64,000 nt of DNA, from NCBI RefSeq assembly GCF_003751945.1, contig NZ_RJKL01000001.1:1488001-1552000 (forward strand). Direction: 5' to 3'. The notes beneath the pieces were generated by a model. The model saw only the letters and a list, made by a program, of their open reading frames with translations, did not search any database and was not told the origin of the DNA. Source of the stretch: Couchioplanes caeruleus. Its GTDB lineage: Bacteria; Actinomycetota; Actinomycetes; Mycobacteriales; Micromonosporaceae. Numbering within the stretch: position 1 is the stretch's first letter; the number at the start of each line of letters is the position of its first letter. Made by a program: the position numbers and the translations under genes. Below, one piece after another: positions 18,629-30,613 of this stretch.

Positions 18629-19290
18629 ACGGCCGAGGCGGCCTCGGTCGTCGCGACCGCCAAGGGAGCGGGCGCGCGGCTGGCGGCCCTCGGCTGCCTC
18701 GTCGACAGGCTGCCCGACCCGCAGCGCGCCGACGCCGTGGCGGCGGTCGTTCGGCGCGCCGTCAAGGTGCCCGCCGAGGCTCCCGACCTGATCGCCTGGG
18801 CCGCGCCCTACCTGCCGCCGGACCACCTGGTCGCCACGCTTCGCACCTTGGCGCTGCACCAGGTTCCCCGCGCGCACTACCAGTCGCTCCGCTCGACCGG
18901 GCCCTCGACCTGCTGAGCCACCGCAGGTTCGATGACCTCGGAGGCGAGGGTCTGCTGGCGCCTCAGCCCCATCTCTCCCCTGCGCAGCGGTGCCGGGCGG
19001 CGGCGGACCTTCTCTCCCGGATGGTCCGCATCCGGGGCGGGCTGAACCATCCGTCGGCGCTCGCGCTCGCCGGGCTCGCGGGCGACCTCACCGCCGCCCA
19101 GGAGGCGAACGACCGCAGCCGCCGCATCCGCGCACTGGCGGCCGTGGGCGCCACGCTCACCGGAACCCGGCCGGACCGGCCGGCCATCCCACCCGCGATC
19201 CCGGCCGGAACGTCGACGTCTACTACGTAGACCTCGATGCTCGGGCCACCGCGGCCGTCGAGGAACGGATCCGCCACGCGTTCGCCCGGC
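18629..19290 (+). pseudogene. Decayed helical-repeat protein gene, frameshifted
   Basis: Three protein-like pieces lie in successive plus frames. Piece 1 (frame 2, to about 18895) includes ASVVATAKGAGARLAALG and DLIAWAAPYLPPDHLVATL; piece 2 (frame 1, about 18895-19200) includes ALDLLSHRRFDDLGGEGLL and SALALAGLAGDLTAAQEAND; piece 3 (frame 3) includes NVDVYYVDLDARATAAVEER. Piece 1 has no start codon, and stops occur between pieces. The helical Leu/Ala pattern suggests a HEAT-like protein. Either the gene is dead or the assembly has indels here. Confidence 0.5.
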
Positions 19291-19336
19291 CATCGGCTAA
19301 CCTGCCGGGCGGGCCTGTCGACCGGAAGGTTGCCGC

Positions 19337-19912
19337 ATGTCAGTGGACGCGTTGCGCAAACAGCGGGACCGCCTGTGGGCCCGCATTGCCGAAAGCGTGG
19401 ACGGTGCGCTCGGGTTCCTGCCGTTCTGGAAACCACAGCCCGAGCCCGACAGCAGCGTGGGGGCAGGATGCCTGAGTCAGTTCTGGCCGGCACCGTTCAC
19501 CGTCGACGGCACGACGTTTCGCAGCGCCGAGCATTTCATGATGTGGCGTAAGGCGACGTTGTTCGCCGACCCGGACACGGCGCGCCGAATCCTGGCGGCC
19601 GAGGATCCGGCGACGGCGCAGGCCCTCGGCAGACAGGTGCGGGGTTTCACGGAGCCGACGTGGACGGCCACCCGCTTCCCGGTGGTGGTGGACGGGAACC
19701 TCGCCAAGTTCGGCGCACATCCGGCGCTGCGGGATTTCCTGCTCGACACAGGCGATCTCGTCCTCGTCGAAGCAAGCCCCGTCGACCGGGTCTGGGGCGC
19801 CGGGCTGGCCGCCGACCATCCCGACATCACTGTTCCGGGCCGTTGGCGAGGGCAGAACCTCCTCGGGTTCGCGCTGATGGAGGTCCGTGACCGGCTGCGT
19901 GACGGCGGATAG
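19337..19912 (+). CDS. NADAR/YbiA-family protein
   Basis: A 191-residue cytosolic protein. CLSQFWPAPFTVDGTTF followed by RSAEHFMMWRKATLF (about residues 46-78), DRVWGAGLA (about 155) and WRGQNLLGFALMEVRDRL at the C-terminus are the signature blocks of the NADAR (YbiA, DUF1768) family. Characterised members cleave N-glycosidic bonds of riboflavin-pathway intermediates or remove ADP-ribose from guanine opposite DarT toxins. No DarT-like gene is visible here. GGAAGG precedes ATG 19337 by about 10 bases. It ends 125 bp before the dynamin operon, so a functional tie is possible but unproven. Confidence 0.85.
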   Translation: MSVDALRKQRDRLWARIAESVDGALGFLPFWKPQPEPDSSVGAGCLSQFWPAPFTVDGTTFRSAEHFMMWRKATLFADPDTARRILAAEDPATAQALGRQVRGFTEPTWTATRFPVVVDGNLAKFGAHPALRDFLLDTGDLVLVEASPVDRVWGAGLAADHPDITVPGRWRGQNLLGFALMEVRDRLRDGG

Positions 19913-20037
19913 TCGGCTCGAGCGAACTCCACTCCGGGAGCGGTGTATGCCGTGATTCGGGTCGCGGTCGTGGCAGCATCGGAGCGACCGGCGGGCGACT
20001 CGACGGGCTCGCGGTTCGGCGATCATGGAGGGTGTGC

Positions 20038-21936
20038 ATGCCGTCTCCCCGGCTCACCGTCACCCGGGAGCAGCACCGGGCCATCTTCGGCACCGGCGAC
20101 CTGCTCAAGCGGCACGGGCTGGACGACTACGCCGAGCGGGCGCGCGACGGCCTGCGCGAGACCGCCTCGGGGCAGCCGGCCGTCGTGGTCGTCGGTGAGG
20201 TCAAACGGGGGAAGAGCTCGCTGGTCAACGCCTTGACCGGACGCCACGTGTCACCGGTGGACGTGGCCGTGCTGACGGCGGCGTTCCTGCGTGTCGTACC
20301 GCCGTCCACCGAGCTGCCGGATGATGGCTGGGCGCTGGTCGGCCAGGGCACACGGCGCCGGGTCTCGCGGCAGGAGGCGTGGGCCGTGCTGTGCGCGGGC
20401 GCCGACGAAGCGCCCGGCGCGGACCCACCGCCCGGCGGCGACGAGTCGCCCGGGTATGTGGAGGTGGCGGCGGCCAGCCGCTGGCTGCCCGGGTTGACTC
20501 TGGTGGACACGCCCGGGTTCGGTGGCCTGGAGTCGGCGCACACGCGGCTGGCCCGGTGGCTGGCGGCCCGCGCGGGCGGGCTACTCGTGGTCACCGACGC
20601 GGGCCAGGTCCTGACGGCCCCGGAGCTGCGGTTCCTGACGGAGGCGGCCGAGGGCGTCGAGACGGTGATCTTCGCTGTGACCAAGGCGGACCGCTATCCC
20701 GACGGTGGGCGACAGGTCATGGCGGAGAACCGCGCCCTGCTGCGTCTGCACGCCCCCCGGTTCGCCGATGCCCCGATGCTGACCGTCTCGGCGGCGCTGG
20801 CCGGTGAGGCCGCGGCGGCGGACGACCAGGAGATCCGCACGCTGCTGGAGCGCGAATCCCACATCCCCGCGCTGGCCGCGGTCCTGCGCGAACGCATCGC
20901 CGACGGCCGCAGCGTCGGCCTGGCGAACGTGCTGCGCACCGCCGCCTCCGGCCTGGACCGCCTGGCCGCGCACCTCGACGGTCAACTCCGGGGCCTGGCC
21001 GCCGCGGCCGACGCCGGCGACCCGGTGCAGGCCGAGAGGGAGGCGCTCGACGAGCTGCGCGAGCGCGACCGCCGCTGGCGGCTCGACCTGGAACGCGACC
21101 TGGGCCGGCTGCGCCAGTCCGCGGTCCGCGACATCGGCCGCCTGCTCGACGACGTACGGGACCGGTGGCGGCTGCGGATCAGCCGGGAGTGGGCGGGCAC
21201 CACCGAGGCGGGCGCCACCCAGTTGCTCGCCGAGCTGGACAGCGAACTGCGCCTGGTAGCGGCGCATGTCGCCGGGCAGTTGCAGGACGGACTCGTGACG
21301 ATGGCGGCGGAGCTGTTCGGCAGCGTGGACGCCGCCGTCGAGGTGCTGCGGCCGGCGACAGCCGAGCTGGACGGACTCGCCCCGTCCCCCGCGCGCCGGC
21401 GCCCGGATGTCGGCGGCGGGGCGATCGATCCCGCCCTGGCGGGTTCGGCGCTGATGGGCGTGGGCCTGGCCGGGCGGCTCGGCCTGGCCGGAGCGACGAT
21501 GGGACCGCTCGGGCTGGTGTTCGGTGGGGCCTGGTTCCTGGTGAATTTCGGCGCTCGGCGGCTGCGCGTCGGCCGGCAACGGCTGGACGCCGCGCTCGCC
21601 GAATCGGTCACCGCGCTGCGCACCGAACTGGTCGGGGCGGTCGACGCCGCGATCCGCGAGTGCCGTCCGGAACTCGTGATCGGCGTCCAGGAGCACCTCA
21701 CGGCCGAGGTCAAGCGGGTGGAGGCCGTGGTGCAGGCCGCCGAGCGCACGACCCGGATGTCGGCCGGCCAACGCGCGGAACGGGTGGCGGCCGTCGAGCG
21801 GGAACTGGCGGCCGTGACCGCGCACCGGAACCTCGTCGAGCGCCAGCTCGGTGAGCTGTCAACGCCGGGAACATCCGCGGTCGCCGCCGCATCCCACCCT
21901 CAACGACCCACCACCCCACCTCGGGAGACGCCATGA
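20038..21936 (+). CDS. Dynamin-like GTPase with C-terminal membrane region (dynamin A)
   Basis: A 632-residue large GTPase. G1 is GEVKRGKSS (residues 53-61), G3 is VDTPG (156-160) and G4 is TKAD (215-218). The stalk region 270-460 is strongly helical and charged (for example DELRERDRRWRLDLERDLGR). Residues about 470-506 are hydrophobic and glycine-rich (SALMGVGLAGRLGLAGATMG, then LGLVFGGAWFLVNFG), as in membrane-inserting paddles of bacterial dynamins. A second helical stretch and a Pro/Thr tail follow. ATG 20038 has GGAGG six bases upstream; a GTG at 20032 is the alternative. It is the first gene of the six-gene unit and overlaps the next as ATGA. Confidence 0.9.
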   Translation: MPSPRLTVTREQHRAIFGTGDLLKRHGLDDYAERARDGLRETASGQPAVVVVGEVKRGKSSLVNALTGRHVSPVDVAVLTAAFLRVVPPSTELPDDGWALVGQGTRRRVSRQEAWAVLCAGADEAPGADPPPGGDESPGYVEVAAASRWLPGLTLVDTPGFGGLESAHTRLARWLAARAGGLLVVTDAGQVLTAPELRFLTEAAEGVETVIFAVTKADRYPDGGRQVMAENRALLRLHAPRFADAPMLTVSAALAGEAAAADDQEIRTLLERESHIPALAAVLRERIADGRSVGLANVLRTAASGLDRLAAHLDGQLRGLAAAADAGDPVQAEREALDELRERDRRWRLDLERDLGRLRQSAVRDIGRLLDDVRDRWRLRISREWAGTTEAGATQLLAELDSELRLVAAHVAGQLQDGLVTMAAELFGSVDAAVEVLRPATAELDGLAPSPARRRPDVGGGAIDPALAGSALMGVGLAGRLGLAGATMGPLGLVFGGAWFLVNFGARRLRVGRQRLDAALAESVTALRTELVGAVDAAIRECRPELVIGVQEHLTAEVKRVEAVVQAAERTTRMSAGQRAERVAAVERELAAVTAHRNLVERQLGELSTPGTSAVAAASHPQRPTTPPRETP

Positions 21937-22886
21937 CGGACCACGACGACTGGACGGACACTCTGCGGCCGTTCCTCCCCGAGGATCCCACCCCCGAGCC
22001 GCCCGCCGATGATCCGGCGCCGGAGCCGCAGGACGGGTTCACGCTGCCCGAGCCGGCCGGCATGCTGCCGTTCCCCGAGGTGGAGCCGGCCGGCGGCGTG
22101 GCGTGGGTGGTCGGCGGTCAGCTCGTCGGCGACCCGGCCGGCGACGCGGCTCACTGGTTCGAGCAGGCGGCGAACGGTTACTGCGTGCCGTCGAGCATCG
22201 CCCAGATCGTCTCGGAGTACAGCGGCTCGCACCACGCCGACGAGTCGGCGTTCGTGGCCCGCGCCAACGCTCTGCACCTGTTCACGATCGGGCCGGACGG
22301 CGTGCCCAGCATGGGCATCGACGGGGCACACGCGCTCCTGGAGGACGCGGGCGTACCCGCCGACATCGAGATCGGCATCGGGGTCGACACGTTGGTCGGC
22401 TACCTGGCCGAGGGCCGGCGGGTGATGCTGGCGGTGGACAGCGACGAGATCTGGTACGGCCGCGAGGACGAGGCCGCCGCGGATCACGCGGTGGTGCTGA
22501 CCGGCGTCGACACCACCCGAGGTGTGGCGATTCTGTCCGACCCGGGTACGCCGGACGGCAACATGCTGGAGGTTCCGCTGGACGTGCTGGCCGACGCGTG
22601 GGCGGACGGCGGTAACGCGGCGCTGGTGTGCGACTACCCGCCCGGAGAGGTGCCCGGCCCGGCGTTCGTGGACGCGGAGCCGGGCGGGCCGGTCGTCGAG
22701 GTGGTCCCGGCGGTACTGCCCGCCGGGGACGCCCCGGCCGGTGTGGTCACCGGCGCGGCGGTGCCCGGAGCGGCCGATGAACCCTCGGGGCAGGTCGAGG
22801 CCGTCGTGTCGTGGCTGGTGGAACGTCCGTACGTGGTCCTGCCGGTGCTGTTGGTCGGCGGCGCGATTCTGGCGCGTCGCCGGTGA
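21933..22886 (+). CDS. C39-like papain-fold protein with C-terminal membrane anchor
   Basis: A 317-residue protein. An acidic Pro-rich N-terminus (residues 1-50) precedes a domain with Cys in ANGYCVPSSIAQIV (about 84), His in ADHAVVLTGVD (about 182) and Asp in ILSDPGT (about 202), the Cys-His-Asp order of C39/papain-like peptidases. A Pro/Val-rich linker leads to a single C-terminal hydrophobic helix (RPYVVLPVLLVGGAILA) and RRR. There is no N-terminal signal peptide, so the catalytic domain is probably cytosolic and tail-anchored (inference). It overlaps both neighbours (ATGA, GTGA). The substrate could be a dynamin or Hsp70 partner, or the domain may only bind peptides. Confidence 0.75.
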   Translation: MTDHDDWTDTLRPFLPEDPTPEPPADDPAPEPQDGFTLPEPAGMLPFPEVEPAGGVAWVVGGQLVGDPAGDAAHWFEQAANGYCVPSSIAQIVSEYSGSHHADESAFVARANALHLFTIGPDGVPSMGIDGAHALLEDAGVPADIEIGIGVDTLVGYLAEGRRVMLAVDSDEIWYGREDEAAADHAVVLTGVDTTRGVAILSDPGTPDGNMLEVPLDVLADAWADGGNAALVCDYPPGEVPGPAFVDAEPGGPVVEVVPAVLPAGDAPAGVVTGAAVPGAADEPSGQVEAVVSWLVERPYVVLPVLLVGGAILARRR

Positions 22887-23185
22887 CGGGTGCGCTGGAT
22901 CCGGCGCAGGGGGTGCTCGGCGAACCGCCCGCACCCCCGCCGGAGGTGTGGGCGGCGGTGCTCGCTCGGGCGCTGGATCCGCAGGCGCCCCCGATCGACG
23001 CCACGGGTCTGGTTCCCGACCCGGCGCAGGACGACAGCCCGGCGGACGTGGGCGACGACGACACGGGGTGGTCTCACCCACCCGGACAATTGACCGAGGC
23101 CACCGCCGGCGATCACGATGACGCGGAGGATCTCCCACCGCTCGACGAGCCCTGGTCTTCGGGGACCGAACCGGAGATGTACTGA
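22883..23185 (+). CDS. Small acidic protein of unknown function
   Basis: A 100-residue protein translated from GTG 22883, overlapping the upstream stop as GTGA and ending directly against the ATG of the Hsp70 gene. It is rich in Asp, Glu and Pro (for example DDSPADVGDDDTGWSHPPG) and probably unstructured except for PPPEVWAAVLARALD near residue 20. The overlaps and absence of other frames support translation. It may be an adaptor or substrate of the neighbouring Hsp70 or dynamins (inference). Confidence 0.65.
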   Translation: MTGALDPAQGVLGEPPAPPPEVWAAVLARALDPQAPPIDATGLVPDPAQDDSPADVGDDDTGWSHPPGQLTEATAGDHDDAEDLPPLDEPWSSGTEPEMY

Positions 23186-25507
23186 ATGCCCGGCTGGACC
23201 CTGTCGATCGACTTCGGCACCTCCAACACCGCCGCCGCGTACCGCCGCGGCGGTGGCGACGCGGCGGCGATCCGGCTGTCCGATCAGGCCGAACAGATGC
23301 CCTCCGCGGTCCTCGTCACGCCCGATGACATCTGGGTGGGCAGCAAGGCGGTGCGGTCCGCACGGCTGCACCCGGACGGCTTCGAGCGCTCCCCGAAGCG
23401 GCTCATCGGCCAGGACATCGTGCTGCTGGGCGGCCGGGACGTGCCGGTGGTGACGCTGGTCGCCGCGGTGTTGCGAGCGGTGGCGGCCCGCGCGAGCCGG
23501 GTCGGTGGCGACGACCGGCCGGACGAGGTGCTGCTGACCCATCCGCAGGACTGGGCGGAACCGCGCCGCAAGGTGCTGCGGGCGGCGGCCGTCGAGGCGG
23601 GGTTCGCCGGCGAGGCCGTCCGGCTGGTACCGGAGCCGGTCGCGGCGGTCGCCCACTACGCACACACGACGCCGCTGCCGGCCGACCGCGCCGTCGCGGT
23701 GTTCGACTTCGGCGGCGGAACCTGCGATGTGGCCCTGCTGCGCGCCGACCCCGTCGACGGCGCCGACCGGGACGCGACGGCGTTGCGAGTGCTCGCCTCG
23801 GCCGGTGCCGACCCGCTCGGCGGCGACGTCTTCGATCACGTGCTGCTGACCGCGGTGCTGCGCCGGCTGGAGGAGCGTGACCGCGGTGACCTGGTCCAGG
23901 CCCTGGGAGACCCGGCCAACGCCCGAGCGGTGCAGGCGTTGCGCAACGACGTGCGGGAGGCCAAACACGAGCTGAGCGAGCACGAGCATGCCGGCATCCC
24001 GGTCGCGGTCGGCGACGACGAAGAGGTCGTGACGATCACCGCCACCGAGTTCGACGAGCTGATCGCCCCCCACGTGCGACGGGCGATCGACCTGACGACG
24101 CAGACGCTGGCGCAGGCGGGCCTGGCCGCCACGGACCTGCACGCGCTGTACCTGACGGGCGGGTCGTCGTACCTGCGCGCCGTGCAGCGGGAGTTGATAG
24201 CGCTGCTGGGCCGGCCGTTCGCCACGCTCGGGGACCCGAAGCTCGTGGTCGCGCTGGGCGCCCACCACGCCGTCCTCGCCACGGCCCCACCGGCCCTGGC
24301 GGCCCCGGCGGCGGCCCCGGCGGATCCGGCGGCCCCGGCGAAGAAGGCAGCCGCCACCCCGGCGGTGAAGTCCACCTCGGCGGCGAGGCGGGCCGCGACG
24401 CCGGCGAGCGAGGCGGTGCCGGACGCGGCGGACGACCCGAACGGCCTCAGCGCGCCCGCGCAGCGCGTCCTGACGGCCAACCCGGCGCTGGCCGCGGCCC
24501 TGGCGACCACGGCGGACGGCCCGGCGATCATCGACGACACCCTGACGCTGGTGGCGCTGATGTGCGTGCCGGACCTCCTGGAACGCGTCACCGCCGAACC
24601 GGCGCTGCTGGGCCGGCTACGCCGGGAGAACGCGGTCCTCGACGTCGCGAAGGAGCCGCCGAAGGGCGTGCCGCTGCCGGTCCGGGTGTTCCTCGGCGAC
24701 TCCGAGGCCTGGACCGGAGCGTTCCGCGGCGCCGCCACCCGGCGCAAGTGGAATGAAGACCATGGCTCGGGAGCCGGGTGGACCCACCGCATGCTGCGCA
24801 CCTGGTGCACGGCGACGCCGGAGGAACGGCGCCAGATCTTCGACACCCCGAATTGGCACCGGTGGGTGACGACCGAGTCGCACTACCCGGACGGATATCA
24901 CGGCGCTGATCCGTGGGAACCCGACAAGGTCTGCCTGTCGCCCGATACCGTCAGGCCGACGGCGGCCGCGCCGCCGCACCATGACTGGCCCCGCCCGGAG
25001 CATCCCACCGCCCAGCAGAAGCACTACGTCCACGACCTCGCCGAGCTCTACGCCGGCAGCCGGCCGGGCGTGGGTCTGGCCGCGGTCACCGCCCCCGCCC
25101 CCGAGCCTTCGGGACAGGTGATGCAGTTCCTGGGCGACCTGCCGGCGGTGCGACGCCGTCCGGTGGAGGTGATGGGGGTGGGCCTGTCGGGGTACCCCAG
25201 CGAGTTGCTGTTCTATCCCGCCCGGGGCCACCGGCCGCCCGCAGTGGTGATCCCGTTCCGGGGCCTGATGCTGTCCACGATCACCGAGACACCGACATGG
25301 AACGGATTCCCGATCATCCTCACCGCCGACGTGGTGACCGGCGTGGCCATCAAGGTCAACTGGGCGAACGCGCACCGTCGGGTCGTGATCAGCACCAGTG
25401 CCAGGCCCGGGGCCACCTGCCCACCGCCGGGCGCGGAGGTACACCTGCGCGGCGGTCAGCTTCCCGAGCTGGCCGGCCGGATCCGAACCCACCTGGGGCG
25501 GCGTTGA
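23186..25507 (+). CDS. Hsp70-type ATPase with unrecognised C-terminal domain
   Basis: A 773-residue protein. The N-terminal 370 residues are an Hsp70/actin-fold nucleotide-binding domain: phosphate loop 1 SIDFGTSNTAA (7-17), phosphate loop 2 VFDFGGGTCDVAL (171-183) and adenosine motif LYLTGGSSYLRAVQ (about 320-333). An Ala/Pro/Lys-rich linker (about 370-420) replaces the usual DLLLLDVTPLS-type linker and the beta-sandwich substrate domain is absent. The C-terminal 350 residues contain Trp/His-rich segments (WNEDHGSGAGWTHRMLRTWC and similar) and a final beta-rich part; I recognise no family. ATG abuts the previous stop, and the stop overlaps the TTG of dynamin B. It probably chaperones or gates the two GTPases (inference). 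Confidence 0.87.
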   Translation: MPGWTLSIDFGTSNTAAAYRRGGGDAAAIRLSDQAEQMPSAVLVTPDDIWVGSKAVRSARLHPDGFERSPKRLIGQDIVLLGGRDVPVVTLVAAVLRAVAARASRVGGDDRPDEVLLTHPQDWAEPRRKVLRAAAVEAGFAGEAVRLVPEPVAAVAHYAHTTPLPADRAVAVFDFGGGTCDVALLRADPVDGADRDATALRVLASAGADPLGGDVFDHVLLTAVLRRLEERDRGDLVQALGDPANARAVQALRNDVREAKHELSEHEHAGIPVAVGDDEEVVTITATEFDELIAPHVRRAIDLTTQTLAQAGLAATDLHALYLTGGSSYLRAVQRELIALLGRPFATLGDPKLVVALGAHHAVLATAPPALAAPAAAPADPAAPAKKAAATPAVKSTSAARRAATPASEAVPDAADDPNGLSAPAQRVLTANPALAAALATTADGPAIIDDTLTLVALMCVPDLLERVTAEPALLGRLRRENAVLDVAKEPPKGVPLPVRVFLGDSEAWTGAFRGAATRRKWNEDHGSGAGWTHRMLRTWCTATPEERRQIFDTPNWHRWVTTESHYPDGYHGADPWEPDKVCLSPDTVRPTAAAPPHHDWPRPEHPTAQQKHYVHDLAELYAGSRPGVGLAAVTAPAPEPSGQVMQFLGDLPAVRRRPVEVMGVGLSGYPSELLFYPARGHRPPAVVIPFRGLMLSTITETPTWNGFPIILTADVVTGVAIKVNWANAHRRVVISTSARPGATCPPPGAEVHLRGGQLPELAGRIRTHLGRR

Positions 25508-26937
25508 CGCACCCGGTTCCCGCCCGTGTGGCCCGCCTGTGCGAGCAGGTCTCGCCGCTGCTCGACGACGCCGGTCGCGAGGCCGCGGCCGCCGTGCGGG
25601 CCGGCCTGGCCGAACCGCTGCGGCTGGCGGTGGTCGGGCGGGTCAAGGCCGGCAAATCCACGCTGGTCAACGCCCTGGTCGGGCGCAGGATCGCGCCCAC
25701 CGCGGCCGGTGAGTGCACCCGCGTGGTCACCTGGTACCGGTACGGCGCCCCGGAACGCGCCGAACTCCACCTGCGCGACGGCACCCGGCAGGAGCTCCCG
25801 CTGGTGGACGGGCGGCTGCCGGAGAGCCTCGGCGTGCCGGACGCGGACGTCGCCCGGATCGTGGTTCACCTGCAGGCCGGCGCATTGCGCGAACACACGG
25901 TCATCGACACGCCGGGACTGGCCACGCTGACCGCCGCCAACGAGGCCGCCACCCGGGAGGCGGTGCTCGGCGCCGGTGACCCGGCCGCCGGATCCTCCGA
26001 CGCGGGGCAGGCGGACGCGGTGCTGTTCGTCTTCCGCGAGGCGGAACGACAGGACGAGGTCGAGTTCCTCCGGCAGTTCCGCGCCGCCACCGGCGAGCTG
26101 GCCGCCAGCGCCGTCAACGCGGTCGGCGTGCTGTCGCAGGCCGACCTGTTCGACGGCGCCGGCATGGATCCGTTCGACGCCGCGGAGGGCCAGGCGGCGC
26201 GGCTCGCCGCCGCCCGTGTCGCCGACGTGTCGGCGGTCGTCGCCGTCTCGGGCCTGCTCGCCGAGACCGCCCGCACCGGCCGCATCCGCGAGCAGGACGC
26301 CCGTGTCCTCGCCGCCGCGGCGGACGTACCCGAGCAGCGGCTGCGGTTGCGACACCGGATGCCGTTGCCGGACGGTGTCGACCAGGCCGCGCTGGAGCGG
26401 CTGTACCCGGTCCTGGGGAACTACGGCGTGCACCGGGGCCGGGAGCGGGCCGGCGCCGGGGCGCACCGGCTGGTGGGCTGGCTGGAGTCCGTGTCCGGGA
26501 TGGCCCGGGTCGAGGAGCTCCTGCGCCGCAGCCTGCTCAGCCGCGCCCACGCGCTGAAGGCCATGCGGGCGCTGACCGTGCTGACCCGCTCAGCCCAGCG
26601 CGCCGGCGCCGAGGCGGCGCTCGCGCTGATCGAGGAGGCTCGGCTCGATCCGGCGCTGCACCCCGTCCGCGAGCTGCGTGCCCTTCGCCTCCTGGTCGCC
26701 GAGGCACCCGCCTCGCCGCTGCGCGCCGCGCTGGAACAGGTCAGCGCGGACACCACCGACACCGCCCGGCTCGGGCTGCCGCACGAGGCGACGCCCGACG
26801 AGATCGCCGGTGCGGCGCGGCAGCGGGCCGCCGCCGCGCAGTCGCAGTCGGCGTTCGCCCTGATGCCCGCCGAGGTGGAGGCCGGCCGGGTGCTCGCCCG
26901 CTCGTACCAGTTGATCGCCCGGCGGGCCCGGCCATGA
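25504..26937 (+). CDS. Dynamin-like GTPase (dynamin B)
   Basis: A 477-residue GTPase with G1 GRVKAGKST (residues 45-53), conserved Thr in the G2 region (ECTRVVTWYRYG), G3 IDTPG (134-138) and G4-like SQAD (211-214). It is shorter than dynamin A and has no hydrophobic paddle, the long/short pairing known for bacterial dynamin partners such as IniA/IniC. The start is TTG at 25504, overlapping the Hsp70 stop as TTGA; ATG/GTG alternatives would cut into the helical N-terminus. Its stop overlaps the sigma-factor ATG. Confidence 0.85.
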   Translation: MTHPVPARVARLCEQVSPLLDDAGREAAAAVRAGLAEPLRLAVVGRVKAGKSTLVNALVGRRIAPTAAGECTRVVTWYRYGAPERAELHLRDGTRQELPLVDGRLPESLGVPDADVARIVVHLQAGALREHTVIDTPGLATLTAANEAATREAVLGAGDPAAGSSDAGQADAVLFVFREAERQDEVEFLRQFRAATGELAASAVNAVGVLSQADLFDGAGMDPFDAAEGQAARLAAARVADVSAVVAVSGLLAETARTGRIREQDARVLAAAADVPEQRLRLRHRMPLPDGVDQAALERLYPVLGNYGVHRGRERAGAGAHRLVGWLESVSGMARVEELLRRSLLSRAHALKAMRALTVLTRSAQRAGAEAALALIEEARLDPALHPVRELRALRLLVAEAPASPLRAALEQVSADTTDTARLGLPHEATPDEIAGAARQRAAAAQSQSAFALMPAEVEAGRVLARSYQLIARRARP

Positions 26938-27488
26938 GGGCGGGTGACCCCTCACGCGAGACGGGGTCCGACGCCGCGCTCGTCGCCCGGGCCCGGGCCG
27001 GTGACAGCGCCGCGTTCGCGGCGCTGGCCGGCGAGTGCCGCACCCGGGTGTGGGCGATCTGCCTGCGGCTGACCGGCAACCACGCCGACGCGGAGGACGC
27101 CCTGCAGGACGCGTTGACGGCCGCCTGGCAGCACATCGGCACCTTCCGGCAGGAGGCCCGGTTCAGCACCTGGCTGTACCGGATCGCCGCGAACGCGGCA
27201 CTCGGCATCGTGCGGCGCCGCCGGGACACTCCCCTGGAGCCGGAGGCGCACGACTACCTGATCGTGGTCGACGACCACACCGAGGACCACGCCGAACGCG
27301 ACCGGGTGCAGTCGGCGCTGGCACAGGTGCCCGAGCCGTTCCGCACCGCCCTGGTGCTGCGCGAGTACGGCGACCTGAGCTACGAGGAGATCGCCGCGCA
27401 CCAGGGCGTCGGCGTGCAGACCGTCAAGAGCCGGCTGTACCGGGCGCGGGCCGCGATGGCGGCGCTGCTCCGTCCGGAGACGAGCTGA
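26934..27488 (+). CDS. ECF RNA polymerase sigma factor
   Basis: A 184-residue sigma factor. Region 2 spans RVWAICLRLTGNHADAED through FSTWLYRIAANAALG (about 37-85), and region 4 spans VPEPFRTALVLREYGDLSYE to GVQTVKSRLYRARAAM (about 130-178). There is no extra C-terminal domain. No anti-sigma factor gene is adjacent; the gene is last in the dynamin/Hsp70 unit with an ATGA overlap. This suggests that the sigma factor is made together with the system and may amplify it or direct a membrane-stress response (inference). Confidence 0.9.
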   Translation: MRAGDPSRETGSDAALVARARAGDSAAFAALAGECRTRVWAICLRLTGNHADAEDALQDALTAAWQHIGTFRQEARFSTWLYRIAANAALGIVRRRRDTPLEPEAHDYLIVVDDHTEDHAERDRVQSALAQVPEPFRTALVLREYGDLSYEEIAAHQGVGVQTVKSRLYRARAAMAALLRPETS

Positions 27489-27499
27489 CCGCACACCGG

Positions 27500-28456
27500 T
27501 CAATCCGCGCCGACCCGCAATGACGGCACCAGGTCGTCGAGCGTGACGCTCAGCGCCGCATCGTCGTGGAACGGCAGCTCCATCACCAACTGGAACCCGA
27601 TGTCGCCGCGGATGCCCACCACCACGTTGGTCAGCATGCGGCCCCGGCCCGACGGCTGCCAGTCGAAGCGGTACATCCGCGCACGGGTCAGACCGTCGAC
27701 CCGCACCGGACGTTCGCCGAGCGCCCGCCTGCCGCGCAGGAACGGCGCGCGGGCGAACACCTCGTCCGTCCACTCGTCGAGGCCGCCCTGCCAGACCTGC
27801 TCCACGGAGGCGGTGGCGATGCGGTCGCCGGCGTCGAGCTGCAGCGTTTCCTGCCACCACCAGCCGTCGACGCGGACCCAGGTGTGCAGCGCCGCGTCCG
27901 GGCCGGCGGTCGTCGCGAGCGACCAGCCGGTCCCGGCCACCGTGTCGTAGCGGTCCGGTGGGCCGCTGGCCAGCACGACGACGCCGAGCGGCGAGCCCGC
28001 CGTGTCCACCTCGCCGGTGTCGGCGGCAGCGACGAACGCACGGAGCGGGCCGCCGTGACCGTCGGAGAACCGGTCGCACGTTCCCGGCAGCGGGCCGACA
28101 TGGCACCGTTCACGGTCGCCGGTGGGCGTGCTGCCGCGCGGCAGTTGGTTGCGCAGCCGCAGCCGCAGCCGGTCGGCGACCGAGCGGTTCTCGCCCGGAT
28201 CCAGCGCCCGTGCCGGCACCACCGCCCGCAGCAGCGCGAACGGCTCCTCGTCGAGCAGTGCTCCCCCGCCGGACACGCGCATCGGTCCGCGCATCCGGCG
28301 CAGTGAGCTGACCGCCCACTCCGCGCCGAGGTCGACCGTGAGCAGGCCCGGCCACGGCCGGATGACGGCCGGGTCCAGCTCCCGGGCGGGGTCGGTGGGT
28401 GGTGGCGGCGGGCCGTCGGGGAAGCCGGACGGAGGCGGCGGCCGGTCCCGGGCCAT
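27500..28456 (-). CDS. Protein of unknown function, Pro-rich N-terminus
   Basis: A 318-residue soluble protein. The first 35 residues are Pro-rich (MARDRPPPPSGFPDGPPPPP); the rest has predicted alternating beta strands, including GVVVLASGPPDRYDTVAGTG and VRVDGWWWQETLQLDAG. No signal peptide, membrane helix or family that I recognise. It starts five bases after the stop of the repeat protein and is probably its operon partner; it converges on the sigma-factor gene with 11 bases between stops. Confidence 0.7.
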   Translation of the reverse strand: MARDRPPPPSGFPDGPPPPPTDPARELDPAVIRPWPGLLTVDLGAEWAVSSLRRMRGPMRVSGGGALLDEEPFALLRAVVPARALDPGENRSVADRLRLRLRNQLPRGSTPTGDRERCHVGPLPGTCDRFSDGHGGPLRAFVAAADTGEVDTAGSPLGVVVLASGPPDRYDTVAGTGWSLATTAGPDAALHTWVRVDGWWWQETLQLDAGDRIATASVEQVWQGGLDEWTDEVFARAPFLRGRRALGERPVRVDGLTRARMYRFDWQPSGRGRMLTNVVVGIRGDIGFQLVMELPFHDDAALSVTLDDLVPSLRVGAD

Positions 28457-28461
28457 CCGAG

Positions 28462-28917
28462 TCAGGCCCGCCGCGGGTCGCCCGGCGCGGCGTCCCGGTT
28501 GTCGGCAAAGGTGTCGCCGTCGCTGTCCGGGGTGCCGCCGGTGACCTGGCCGGTCTGCTCGGCGATCTCGATGATCAGGCCCGCCGGGCCGTCGAAGCTC
28601 GGCCGGCCACCGACCACCGCGCCCGGCGCTGTCTCGGCCGCATCGGCGATCCCGTTCTCGTTGGCGTCGGCCACCACCCGGTCGAAGACGCCGTCGCCGG
28701 TGTCGTCGAACGCGCCGGCGTCGATCAGGCCGTTCTGATCGGTGTCGACGCCCGCGGCCTCGAAGATGCCGTTCTCGTCGCGGTCGGCGAGGATGACATC
28801 CAGAACGCCGTTGACGTCCCGATCCTGGCCGACACCGTCGATGACGCCGTTCAGATCCGCGTCGGCGGCCACCGTCTCGTAGTAACCGTCTCCGTCGCCG
28901 TCCATGTACTCGAACAT
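28462..28917 (-). CDS. Cytosolic Asp/Asn/Gly 13-residue repeat protein, probably calcium-binding
   Basis: A 151-residue acidic protein. Residues 6-96 form seven units with an exact 13-residue period; the positions D6, D19, D32, D45, D58, D71 and D84 start units of the form DxDxNG(V/I/L)(I/F/L)(D/E)xxxx. This resembles calcium-binding thrombospondin type-3 and EF-hand-loop repeats. DSDGDTFADNRD near the C-terminus is a further degenerate copy. No signal peptide is present, which is unusual since such repeats are normally extracellular. AGGAGG lies upstream of ATG 28917. It is the first gene of the two-gene unit converging on the dynamin/Hsp70 operon. Confidence 0.8.
   Translation of the reverse strand: MFEYMDGDGDGYYETVAADADLNGVIDGVGQDRDVNGVLDVILADRDENGIFEAAGVDTDQNGLIDAGAFDDTGDGVFDRVVADANENGIADAAETAPGAVVGGRPSFDGPAGLIIEIAEQTGQVTGGTPDSDGDTFADNRDAAPGDPRRA
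28630..28902 (-). repeat. Seven 39-bp coding repeats
   Basis: The DNA coding for residues 6-96 of the acidic repeat protein; each 39-bp unit encodes one 13-residue DxDxNG-type repeat. The period is exact at protein level although third-position bases have diverged. Confidence 0.8.
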
Positions 28918-29107
28918 CGGTTCCTCCTGCCTCGTTGTCGAGAGTCTGAGGCGGGAACGACGGCGAATGTTCCCGGCATCGCAGATCGAGCTTCCCACCG
29001 GTAGGTCTCCGCGCGCGATTTGCCCCGCCCTGGGCCGCGAATCCCTTTGCCGCAGGGACGGCCGATTGAAGAGTGCCGGCTCCTCGCCTCCCGTAGCCTC
29101 GAAAAAC

Positions 29108-30613
29108 GTGAGCGACAGCGGGAGTGAGGGGCGGCTCGTCGGCGTCCGCGTACCGCGGTGGGGCGCCCGGGCGGGTGCCTCGCTGGTGCTGCTCACCATG
29201 GCCCTGGCCGTCGTCGCCCTCCTCGCGGCACTGCTCGGTCCTCGGGTGGTGCTGGGCGAGGACACCTGGCGGTATGTGCTCTACACCCTGTCGGTGCTGC
29301 TCTCGGCCGCCGCGTGTCTGTGCCGGGCCGCGGCGACTCCGCTGGAGCGGCCGGCGTGGGCGCTGCTCGGCGCCGGGCTCCTGACGTGGGGGCTGGGCAA
29401 TGTGTACTCGCTGGTGTGGCTGCGCCACCTCGACACGTACCCCGTGTTGAGCTGGGGCGACGCCTTGTGGCTGGCGTGGTATCCGCTCGTCGGCGCCGCG
29501 CTGGTGCTGCTGTTACGTTCCCGGATCTCGGCGGTGCCGCGCAATCTGTGGTTCGACGGCGTCGTCGTGGGCTGCGCCACCGGGGCCGTGTACGCGGTCG
29601 TGGTGATCGGCGCCTACCTGCCCGACGACGCCGCGTCGGTGCGCGGGGTGGACCTGGTGGCGGCGTTCTCCTACCCGGCCGGCGACATCGTGCTGCTGGC
29701 GATGGTCACCAGTGTCCTCGCTGTGCACGGCTGGCGGCTGCACGGTGGCTGGGGTTGGCTGGTCGCGGGCCTGGCGGGCAGCGCCCTGATCGACGGCGCC
29801 TATCTGTCGGCGAACGCCTCCGACCGGGTGTTGTTCGGCGCCTGGCCGCTCGTGGCGGCGGCGCTCGCCCGGGCCGCGTGGAAGGCGGTACGGCGGGTGG
29901 AGCAGGTCGAGGTCACCGGCTGGCGGATGTTCGCGGCGCCCGCCTGCTGTGCACTCGTGGTGCTGGGGGTGCTGCTGCACGCCGCGTCCGGCGACTCCAA
30001 CCCGGTCGCGCTCGTGCTCGTCACGGTCAGTTACCTCGCCTTGATGGCCCGCGTGGGTCTGCTCTTCGCCGACGTGCGCCGCGTCCAGGCGCGGCTGGAG
30101 GCGGCGCGCGCCGCCGCCGACCACCTGTCGCGGACCGACCCGCTGACCGGTGCCGCCAACCGCCGGGCCTTCGGCGAGGCCTTCGACGGGGTACGCCGCG
30201 ACGAGAACTGCGCGGGCATCCTGCTCGTCGACATCGACCATTTCAAGCAGATCAACGACCGGTACGGCCACGAGGCCGGCGACGCCGTCATCGTCGCGGT
30301 GATCGGTCGGATGGCGGCGGCGGTGCGCCGCGACGACGTGGTGGGGCGTTGGGGCGGCGAGGAGTTCTGCGTGCTGCTGGACGCCGTACCGGACGCCGAG
30401 GTGCTGGGGCAGGTCGCGGAGAAGGTCCGCACGGCCGTGTGCGGCGAGCCGGTGCCGCTGCCGGACGGGAGCGCGATCGACGTCACCGTGTCGGTCGGGG
30501 CGGTGCTGCTCGACCACGTCACCACCCTGGACTTCGCCATCAGCACCGCCGACGAGCAGTTGTACGCCGCCAAGCGGGGCGGGCGCAATCAGGTTCGGGC
30601 CACCGCCTTGTAG
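29108..30613 (+). CDS. Membrane-bound diguanylate cyclase
   Basis: A 501-residue protein that makes cyclic di-GMP. Residues about 15-325 contain roughly eight to ten hydrophobic segments of an uncharacterised sensor. The GGDEF domain (about 335-498) begins SRTDPLTGAANRRAF, has metal-site Asp in ILLVDIDHFKQINDRYGH and the active-site GRWGGEEFCVLLD. RRDD sits five residues before GGEEF, the correct place for an RxxD product-inhibition site, so feedback control is likely. The GTG start at 29108 (VSDSGSEG) precedes the first helix. No EAL domain is present. Confidence 0.92.
   Translation: MSDSGSEGRLVGVRVPRWGARAGASLVLLTMALAVVALLAALLGPRVVLGEDTWRYVLYTLSVLLSAAACLCRAAATPLERPAWALLGAGLLTWGLGNVYSLVWLRHLDTYPVLSWGDALWLAWYPLVGAALVLLLRSRISAVPRNLWFDGVVVGCATGAVYAVVVIGAYLPDDAASVRGVDLVAAFSYPAGDIVLLAMVTSVLAVHGWRLHGGWGWLVAGLAGSALIDGAYLSANASDRVLFGAWPLVAAALARAAWKAVRRVEQVEVTGWRMFAAPACCALVVLGVLLHAASGDSNPVALVLVTVSYLALMARVGLLFADVRRVQARLEAARAAADHLSRTDPLTGAANRRAFGEAFDGVRRDENCAGILLVDIDHFKQINDRYGHEAGDAVIVAVIGRMAAAVRRDDVVGRWGGEEFCVLLDAVPDAEVLGQVAEKVRTAVCGEPVPLPDGSAIDVTVSVGAVLLDHVTTLDFAISTADEQLYAAKRGGRNQVRATAL

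Follow-up and report, generated by a model that had tools for sequence, protein, structure and literature searches.

A conserved gene unit of two dynamins, an Hsp70 and an ECF sigma factor in Couchioplanes caeruleus, a probable variant of the Ini-type dynamin module

We analyzed a stretch of 64,000 nucleotides (nt) from Couchioplanes caeruleus (assembly GCF_003751945.1, contig NZ_RJKL01000001.1, positions 1,488,001 to 1,552,000; hereafter the window), in which six forward-strand genes and one convergent gene encode two dynamin-like GTPases (DynA and DynB), a C39-like protein (C39), an acidic protein of 100 amino acids (aa), an Hsp70, an extracytoplasmic function (ECF) sigma factor and a repeat protein (Rep). 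The unit is real and conserved and has a common promoter-like element, and its sequence relationships indicate a variant of the Ini-type dynamin module known from mycobacteria. The host carries an Actinoplanes-type chromosome in a genome of 8.43 Mb in two contigs, its closest named relatives being A. italicus and A. flavus. A first-pass annotation, made from the sequence alone, had described the six genes and their five tight junctions, all of which were present on re-reading (ATGA, GTGA, TGA-ATG, TTGA and ATGA, in order from DynA to ECF).

Conservation of the unit and its promoter-like element

The eight loci compared first comprised four whole-genome stretches (L011-L014) and four named records (L021-L024). 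Co-occurrence in other genomes had been named beforehand as the check whose failure would count against the grouping, and the set was found to recur, partly reordered, in seven of these loci, with DynA, C39, Hsp70, DynB, ECF and Rep all present and the acidic protein in six (not L022). Spirilliplanes, Jidongwangia and Herbiconiux have the genes in altered order, and in L014 Rep is set apart, while the eighth locus, from Salsipaludibacter, holds only Hsp70 and a DynB fused to a CHAT domain. Since the content of the set is kept in distant genomes, it is more than a chance grouping, and the genes can be treated as one unit, as first proposed. Short overlaps are frequent in high-GC genomes and each of the domains is common on its own, which would suit a loose operon of unrelated functions held together by chance; that explanation is scarcely credible, however, and already contradicted, given that the content survives reordering, that repeats are fused to C39 in relatives and that the same element stands at two places.

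This element is marked by an 8-mer, GGGAACAT, with 17 occurrences in 12 sequences (the whole window, L011-L014, L021, L022, L024, L147, L148, L017 and L129), 16 of which lie 56-75 nt before the start of C39 or Rep. It precedes both genes in all eight loci that have both, with two sites in each, and on this basis the repeat protein, which had been listed as a possible member, belongs to the unit. A GCATC-like box follows after a 16-nt spacer, the length tried first, in 15 of the 16 sites and after 17 nt in the other; the box reads GCATC in nine sites and GCCTC in three (GCMTC in 12/16), and CTCTC, CCCTC or GTCTC in the other four. The C39 site of the window is embedded in the 3' end of dynA and encodes the peptide PGTS there, giving the operon an internal promoter-like element ahead of C39. 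PGTS is found in six of eight aligned DynA rows, the others being L022, where the site follows dynA, and L013, whose row is cut short. GGAAC-type -35 boxes are commonly read by ECF factors. The link from sigma factor to expression drawn in the first-pass annotation is supported as far as shared control is concerned, which the common element makes likely, with the ECF protein as the putative reader of the element.

A matrix made from the 16 sites was applied to loci outside its training set. Its best four places in L201, a plasmid locus, lie before Rep, the acidic-ECF gene pair, Hsp70 and a lipoprotein-like gene; the best three in L202 before Rep, a lipoprotein-like gene and DynA; and the best two in L204 before Rep and DynA. 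In L187 a site lies 118 nt ahead of Rep and another within the 3' end of DynA, the second-best site of L148 lies 61 nt before DynA, and the third-best of L203 (Gordonia) lies before the acidic-ECF pair. Such an element also stands 73 nt before DynA in L024. Among six contrasting ini-type loci the best scores ranged from 8.5 to 19.5, and of the best four places in each, only two low-scoring ones (L131 and L138) lie before a called start.

Table 1 Features of the unit in the window
Feature	Position	Strand	Description	Basis
DynA	20038..21936	+	IniA-type dynamin-like GTPase, 632 aa	Pfam, PDB match, tree, alignment
Promoter-like element, ECF-type, within dynA	21867..21893	+	GGGAACAT-N14-GCATC, 66 nt before C39 start	
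C39	21933..22886	+	C39/BtrH-superfamily papain-like Cys-His-Asp protein, 317 aa	Sub-cut-off Pfam, alignments, model, Foldseek
Acidic protein	22883..23185	+	100 aa	Motif P-x-x-V-W-x-x-x-L-x-x-A-L-D-P
Hsp70	23186..25507	+	Nucleotide-binding domain and unrelated C-terminal half (~residues 420-773)	Pfam, alignments, PDB
DynB	25504..26937	+	IniC-type dynamin-like GTPase, 477 aa, TTG start, overlap TTGA	Pfam, tree, junction
ECF sigma factor	26934..27488	+	184 aa	Pfam, NCBIfam, kept in relatives
g27.5	27500..28456	-	Accessory, downstream of Rep	In only part of the Actinoplanes-type loci
Rep	28462..28917	-	Acidic, 13-residue D-x-[DN]-x-[DN]-G repeats, 151 aa	
Promoter-like element, ECF-type	28948..28974	-	GGGAACAT-N14-GCCTC, 57 nt before Rep	

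The convergent genes had been described as a repeat-protein pair, which is right for Rep and wrong for g27.5, a protein with neither repeats nor a Pfam family. The latter matches in L012 and L013, and it was set aside as a core part on account of fragments only in L011 and no match in L014. No sigma-70-type promoter or terminator was found in 19800-29200, and Rfam gave no match in 19000-30000. Upstream of DynA, a different motif, CGTGGCA[GC]CATC, is conserved in all five Actinoplanes-type loci (19900-20037 in the window, and L011-L014) and may represent another promoter type. A NADAR-domain protein (19337-19912, E 1e-51) lies just 5' of the unit and has a counterpart near the unit only in L013 among the eight compared loci. 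The longest frame of a divergent GGDEF gene (28904-30613) begins inside Rep and spans its promoter-like element, the true start probably being further downstream.

Protein parts and their kinship with the Ini dynamins

Both GTPases recognized in the first-pass annotation have a Dynamin_N domain in Pfam, with E 5.9e-17 in DynA and E 1.6e-12 in DynB, the latter scanned in a longer frame; the gene caller favoured a start at 25528. The accompanying statement that one has a hydrophobic paddle and the other none does not follow from hydropathy taken by itself, which reaches only 1.41-1.46 at residues 419-484 of DynA and is stronger in DynB (1.75 at 234-253). A paddle in DynA is supported because its hydrophobic and basic stretch aligns with the region through which IniA interacts with lipids. 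IniA carries out membrane fission, cutting membranes in dependence on GTP, and binds them through loop 480-492 in that region (PMC6715688). IniA is also the best solved relative of DynA (6j72, E 4.9e-15), and BDLP is a PDB match of both GTPases. The protein at the DynA position of an ini-type locus, L142, scores 1013 bits to 6j72, the solved sequence of IniA, and is IniA or a close ortholog.

The proposal that the two dynamins pair as IniA and IniC do was supported by trees, which put DynA on the side of the IniA-type proteins and DynB on that of the IniC-type ones. Among 63 GTPases, in a tree with several long branches, the A and B proteins fall into two halves, each split alike into ini-type and C39-type; L129, labelled ini, falls among the C39-type rows in both halves, and L147 and L148 stand apart. 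With three other dynamins of the host genome included, the A rows stay together (93) as do the B rows (99), and one of the three, L196, joins next to the B rows (86). In the window the IniA- and IniC-type dynamins belong to one operon with three genes between them.

Many of the 21 loci found through DynB encode an AAA/LuxR protein like the ini regulator IniR and a protein with an IniB-like N-terminal domain. Within positions 10001-40000 of the window, no profile match to an IniR-type AAA/LuxR regulator was obtained, the unit having the ECF gene instead, and the called genes gave no match to the IniB N-terminal domain. Of 34 scored loci, 14 have ECF, C39 or Rep and 18 an IniR- or IniB-type match; both marker sets occur only in L014 and L183, through shorter IniR matches (216 and 439 aa), and neither in L023, L133, L136 and L144. 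These counts are suggestive of separate types, in a table whose loci were picked by different queries, some of these loci having also supplied the IniR and IniB profiles. Absences in it are weak, because some real genes went uncalled (Rep in the window, ECF in L022, DynB in L011 and DynA in L021).

The host genome has eight PF00350 genes: the pair in the window, pairs in L017 and L129, one in L018 and one more. L017 (G000:C1:1414001-1434000), ~84 kb from the unit, is ini-type, with Hsp70-DynB, a LuxR-type regulator, an IniB-like protein and DynA, and the third pair, in L129 (G000:C1:185501-205500), adjoins a LuxR-type regulator. In L018 (G000:C1:4263001-4283000), tandem P-loop proteins, one of them PF00350, are divergent from an Hsp70 with a GrpE gene, which makes this a fourth, distant dynamin-Hsp70 neighbourhood in the host genome.

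The Hsp70 was correctly read as an ATPase domain without its substrate domain. It matches PF00012 (E 8.8e-32) with a best stretch at residues 91-359, beyond which no substrate-binding domain was found by Pfam and the C-terminal half is unrelated in sequence. This half matches only L011-L014 and L186 among the loci scanned, and in L021-L024 a linker and a membrane segment replace it. A fold assignment for it was set aside, as the three-sequence model had a predicted local distance difference test (pLDDT) score of 44. An Hsp70 lies in the same stretch as DynB in 20 of the 21 DynB-found loci, the exception being L129; these cover 21 of 23 places (G103 and G664 left out) and include the window, L017 and L023, which were also found through Hsp70. 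In an ini-type locus, a 1342-aa frame of uncertain start combines Hsp70 with RCC1 repeats (L145:6075-10103). GrpE domains were detected in eight of ten tested neighbours of Hsp70 or the dynamins: C-terminal domains in L021, L024, L022, L023 and L186 (E 3.5e-13 to 5e-4, L022 being sub-cut-off), whose proteins have hydrophobic N-terminal stretches by eye, and longer matches in L144, L136 and L018, with none in L132 or L133. A GrpE-like gene also lies, by eye, between DynA and DynB in L202 and L204.

The sigma factor has regions 2 and 4 only (Sigma70_r2, PF04542, E 5e-17; r4_2, PF08281, E 5e-15), again as first called. In the five Actinoplanes-type loci it follows the C39 element on the same strand, and elsewhere it is placed apart. 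The protein first described as acidic has an isoelectric point of 4.05. A scan of 29 loci for its motif, with a pattern derived from members seen beforehand, was positive in 13, each of them an ECF- or C39-type locus or kin of these; none of eight ini-type loci has the motif, and it is missing from eight other C39-type or related loci. No anti-sigma family was among the family matches within the unit. The acidic gene adjoins ECF in L024, L147, L148 and L201-L204, and its product is therefore a candidate anti-sigma factor or co-regulator on grounds of position.

For the C39-like protein, Pfam scores are sub-cut-off (Peptidase_C39_2 E 0.012; BtrH_N E 8e-5), and the Cys-His-Asp set seen at first reading holds across 47 aligned rows, with H185 and D203 invariant and C84 in at least 90%. 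The structural model has block means of 90-98 over residues 71-240 (78.5 as a whole), and its closest solved structure is 3erv, a C39-like peptidase (Foldseek E 8.7e-7, profile E 2e-4), so that a papain-like fold with Cys, His and Asp is predicted. A single C-terminal hydrophobic stretch at 290-308 by simple hydropathy suggests that the protein is probably tail-anchored. Rep has six D-x-[DN]-x-[DN]-G motifs, at residues 6, 19, 32, 45, 58 and 84, the first five 13 apart, and is a probable calcium binder. By eye, such repeats begin the C39 protein itself in Spirilliplanes, Jidongwangia and Herbiconiux, as well as in C39 relatives named from Tenggerimyces and Rhodococcus, and these fusions therefore tie Rep to C39. 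Double-glycine processing of Rep by C39 was set aside, as the GG motif is not conserved by eye (present in the window, L011, L021 and L024; none in L012, L013 and L014).

A papain-like protease joined to calcium-binding domains recalls calpain and allows a calcium-triggered repair of membrane wounds to be imagined, in which calcium entering through a breach would load the D-repeats and switch on C39, which would remove the acidic protein from ECF, whereupon the dynamins and Hsp70 would seal or shed membrane; we consider this sequence of events very unlikely.

Distribution, plasmid carriage and alternative functions

C39 relatives at E 1e-5 numbered 111 among 7997 candidates scored. In the host family, C39 was present in seven of 200 genomes (host included; two weak), and the Hsp70 C-terminal half in five of 120 relatives, again including the host genome. 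A Tenggerimyces C39 query at E 1e-25 recovered only the host among 396 genomes of the phylum sample, where DynB at E 1e-20 was found in 19. At the order level a Pseudonocardia query (E 1e-10) gave C39-like matches in 25 of 397 genomes, many of which are probably other proteins. Of seven order-level stretches, L182, L183, L186 and L187 have a dynamin or Hsp70 with a C39 or repeat gene, and no such combination was seen in L184, L185 and L188.

DynB relatives also occur in 34 plasmid records (Rhodococcus 16, Prescottella 12, Gordonia 5, Nonomuraea 1), 22 of them predicted mobilizable and one conjugative, and C39 relatives in 27 (Rhodococcus 14, Prescottella 12, Anabaena 1); 14 of 20 DynB records listed are also among 20 C39 records listed. 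Four plasmid regions, three from Rhodococcus and one from Gordonia, all contain DynB, Hsp70, ECF and the acidic protein, the last by profile matches of E 3e-6 to 3e-5 in Rhodococcus and by motif search only in Gordonia. Rep and C39 are found in the three Rhodococcus regions, and DynA is annotated in three of the four (not L201). In the Gordonia region the acidic-ECF pair lies ~8 kb from Hsp70. Lipoprotein-like genes flank all four plasmid units, and MspA porins those of L203 (Gordonia plasmid pGKT3) and L201 (pUSK13_1). As the same element precedes some of the porin and lipoprotein genes, the sigma factor may control surface proteins too.

Such neighbours and the plasmid records would suit a surface module linked to plasmids or mating, in which remodelling, porins and lipoproteins aid or limit DNA transfer between actinomycetes. 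This strikes us as decidedly unlikely, since the window copy lies on an 8.3-Mb contig, the annotations of the four plasmid stretches, in gene tables that are not complete, name no transfer gene, and unrelated functions are abundant on large plasmids. The same patchiness within the family and presence on plasmids would fit a defence or conflict system in which dynamins, papain-like enzyme and Hsp70 halt phage-induced lysis or kill the infected cell. In Salsipaludibacter albus (L023:12437-15313) the caspase-like CHAT domain (PF12770 E 4e-28) is fused to the N terminus of DynB beside an Hsp70 and a GrpE-like protein, which hints at a conflict-type version, and PADLOC models of LeoA/LeoBC match DynA and DynB (E 2.5e-16 to 5e-6), as does candidate model PDC-M61B the Hsp70 (E 4e-7). 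LeoA/LeoBC are dynamin models, however, and DynA is closest to IniA among solved proteins; the PADLOC scan gave no match for C39, the acidic protein, ECF, Rep or g27.5 and no complete match of the unit to a described anti-phage system, and elements before plasmid porin and lipoprotein genes resemble surface physiology. We therefore regard defence as unlikely, if the foremost of the alternatives.

A proposed inducible membrane-remodelling module

The kinship of the GTPases with IniA and IniC, together with the Hsp70 near DynB, is why we take the unit to be a probable variant of the Ini-type module, one where the ECF sigma factor fills the place of IniR, and the C39, acidic and repeat proteins that of IniB. 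We put at somewhat better than even the chance that the unit, as an inducible module of the Ini kind, remodels the membrane after envelope damage. We infer that such damage would be the signal. A freed or activated ECF factor would then read GGGAAC-N16-GCATC-like promoters before C39 and Rep, so that C39, the acidic protein, Hsp70, DynB and, by positive feedback, ECF itself would rise together with Rep, DynA being transcribed from upstream. DynA and DynB would work as a pair at the cytoplasmic membrane, where they would pinch, seal or shed damaged parts; IniA acts on membranes in vitro. The Hsp70 ATPase, which in relatives is accompanied by a GrpE-like exchange factor and has a membrane segment of its own, would control the dynamins by remodelling or recycling their assembly. 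The C39 protein, probably tail-anchored, would cut or modify a partner, which may be Rep or the acidic protein, and Rep could be a calcium-loaded scaffold or sensor in place of IniB.

Several observations weigh against this remodelling model or the element on which its control depends. A mobile accessory function would suit the patchy spread and the presence on plasmids better than core envelope repair, and the window unit has no GrpE by Pfam. The full pattern has three exact matches in the host genome (8.4 Mb), two being the C39 and Rep sites and the third antisense inside a gene that resembles, by eye, cyanophycin synthetase, whereas a reversed control pattern has four; the count is not enriched, and the weight of the element therefore rests on position and conservation, in a training set of which five of eight loci are closely related. 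Shuffled sequence (three versions of each of the four plasmid loci) scored up to 19.0 with the matrix, exceeding several held-out sites, and weaker sites therefore count by place alone. The matrix found no good site near a called start in L183, L186 and L206 and a single weak one (13.5), before DynB, in L182; the best sites of L205 (29.5) and L182 (24.1) precede no called start, and the two best of L203 precede a hypothetical gene and the MspA porin, with GCAAC boxes. DynA of the five Actinoplanes-type loci has no GGGAAC element upstream.

Among known systems, the unit is most readily compared with iniBAC-IniR of mycobacteria, with which it shares paired dynamins (IniA/IniC homologs), a dedicated regulator and an acidic or repetitive third protein. 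The likeness extends to an Hsp70-like gene in the neighbourhood, a dnaK-like gene being noted for M. smegmatis (PMC5760070). It differs in having an ECF sigma factor where iniBAC has the AAA/LuxR protein IniR, in the C39-like, acidic and D-repeat proteins added where no IniB N-terminal domain was found, and in the place of Hsp70 inside the operon. Dynamin-like GTPases are also found in LeoABC, Nostoc BDLP and Campylobacter DLP1/2, and Bacillus DynA is another bacterial dynamin; we know of no LeoABC or other bacterial dynamin pair with Hsp70, C39 and ECF genes. The C39 protein resembles C39/BtrH_N enzymes in C84/H185/D203 and the predicted papain-like fold, but has a probable tail anchor, no ABC exporter fusion and, in relatives, the D-repeat fusion. 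The Hsp70 shares with DnaK and its GrpE partner the nucleotide-binding domain and, in several relatives, nearby GrpE domains, but in place of a substrate-binding domain has the unrelated C-terminal half, or the linker and membrane segment of L021-L024. An incomplete literature check found no published description of the unit, so that its absence from print is weakly supported.

The ini operon responds to front-line tuberculosis drugs, iniBAC to ethambutol and isoniazid (PMC5760070). Over many actinobacterial loci, Ini-type dynamins are tied to a nearby Hsp70, some of them with GrpE. How the ini dynamins are controlled is, to our knowledge, an open question, and here a soil relative offers a dynamin pair of the Ini kind that appears to be connected to an ECF sigma factor and to a promoter-like element that can be read from the sequence. 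The pairing of C39 with calcium-type repeats suggests a sensing chemistry of which, as far as we know, there is no example among bacterial dynamins. With this unit, a dynamin partner and its control circuit would become testable outside pathogens.

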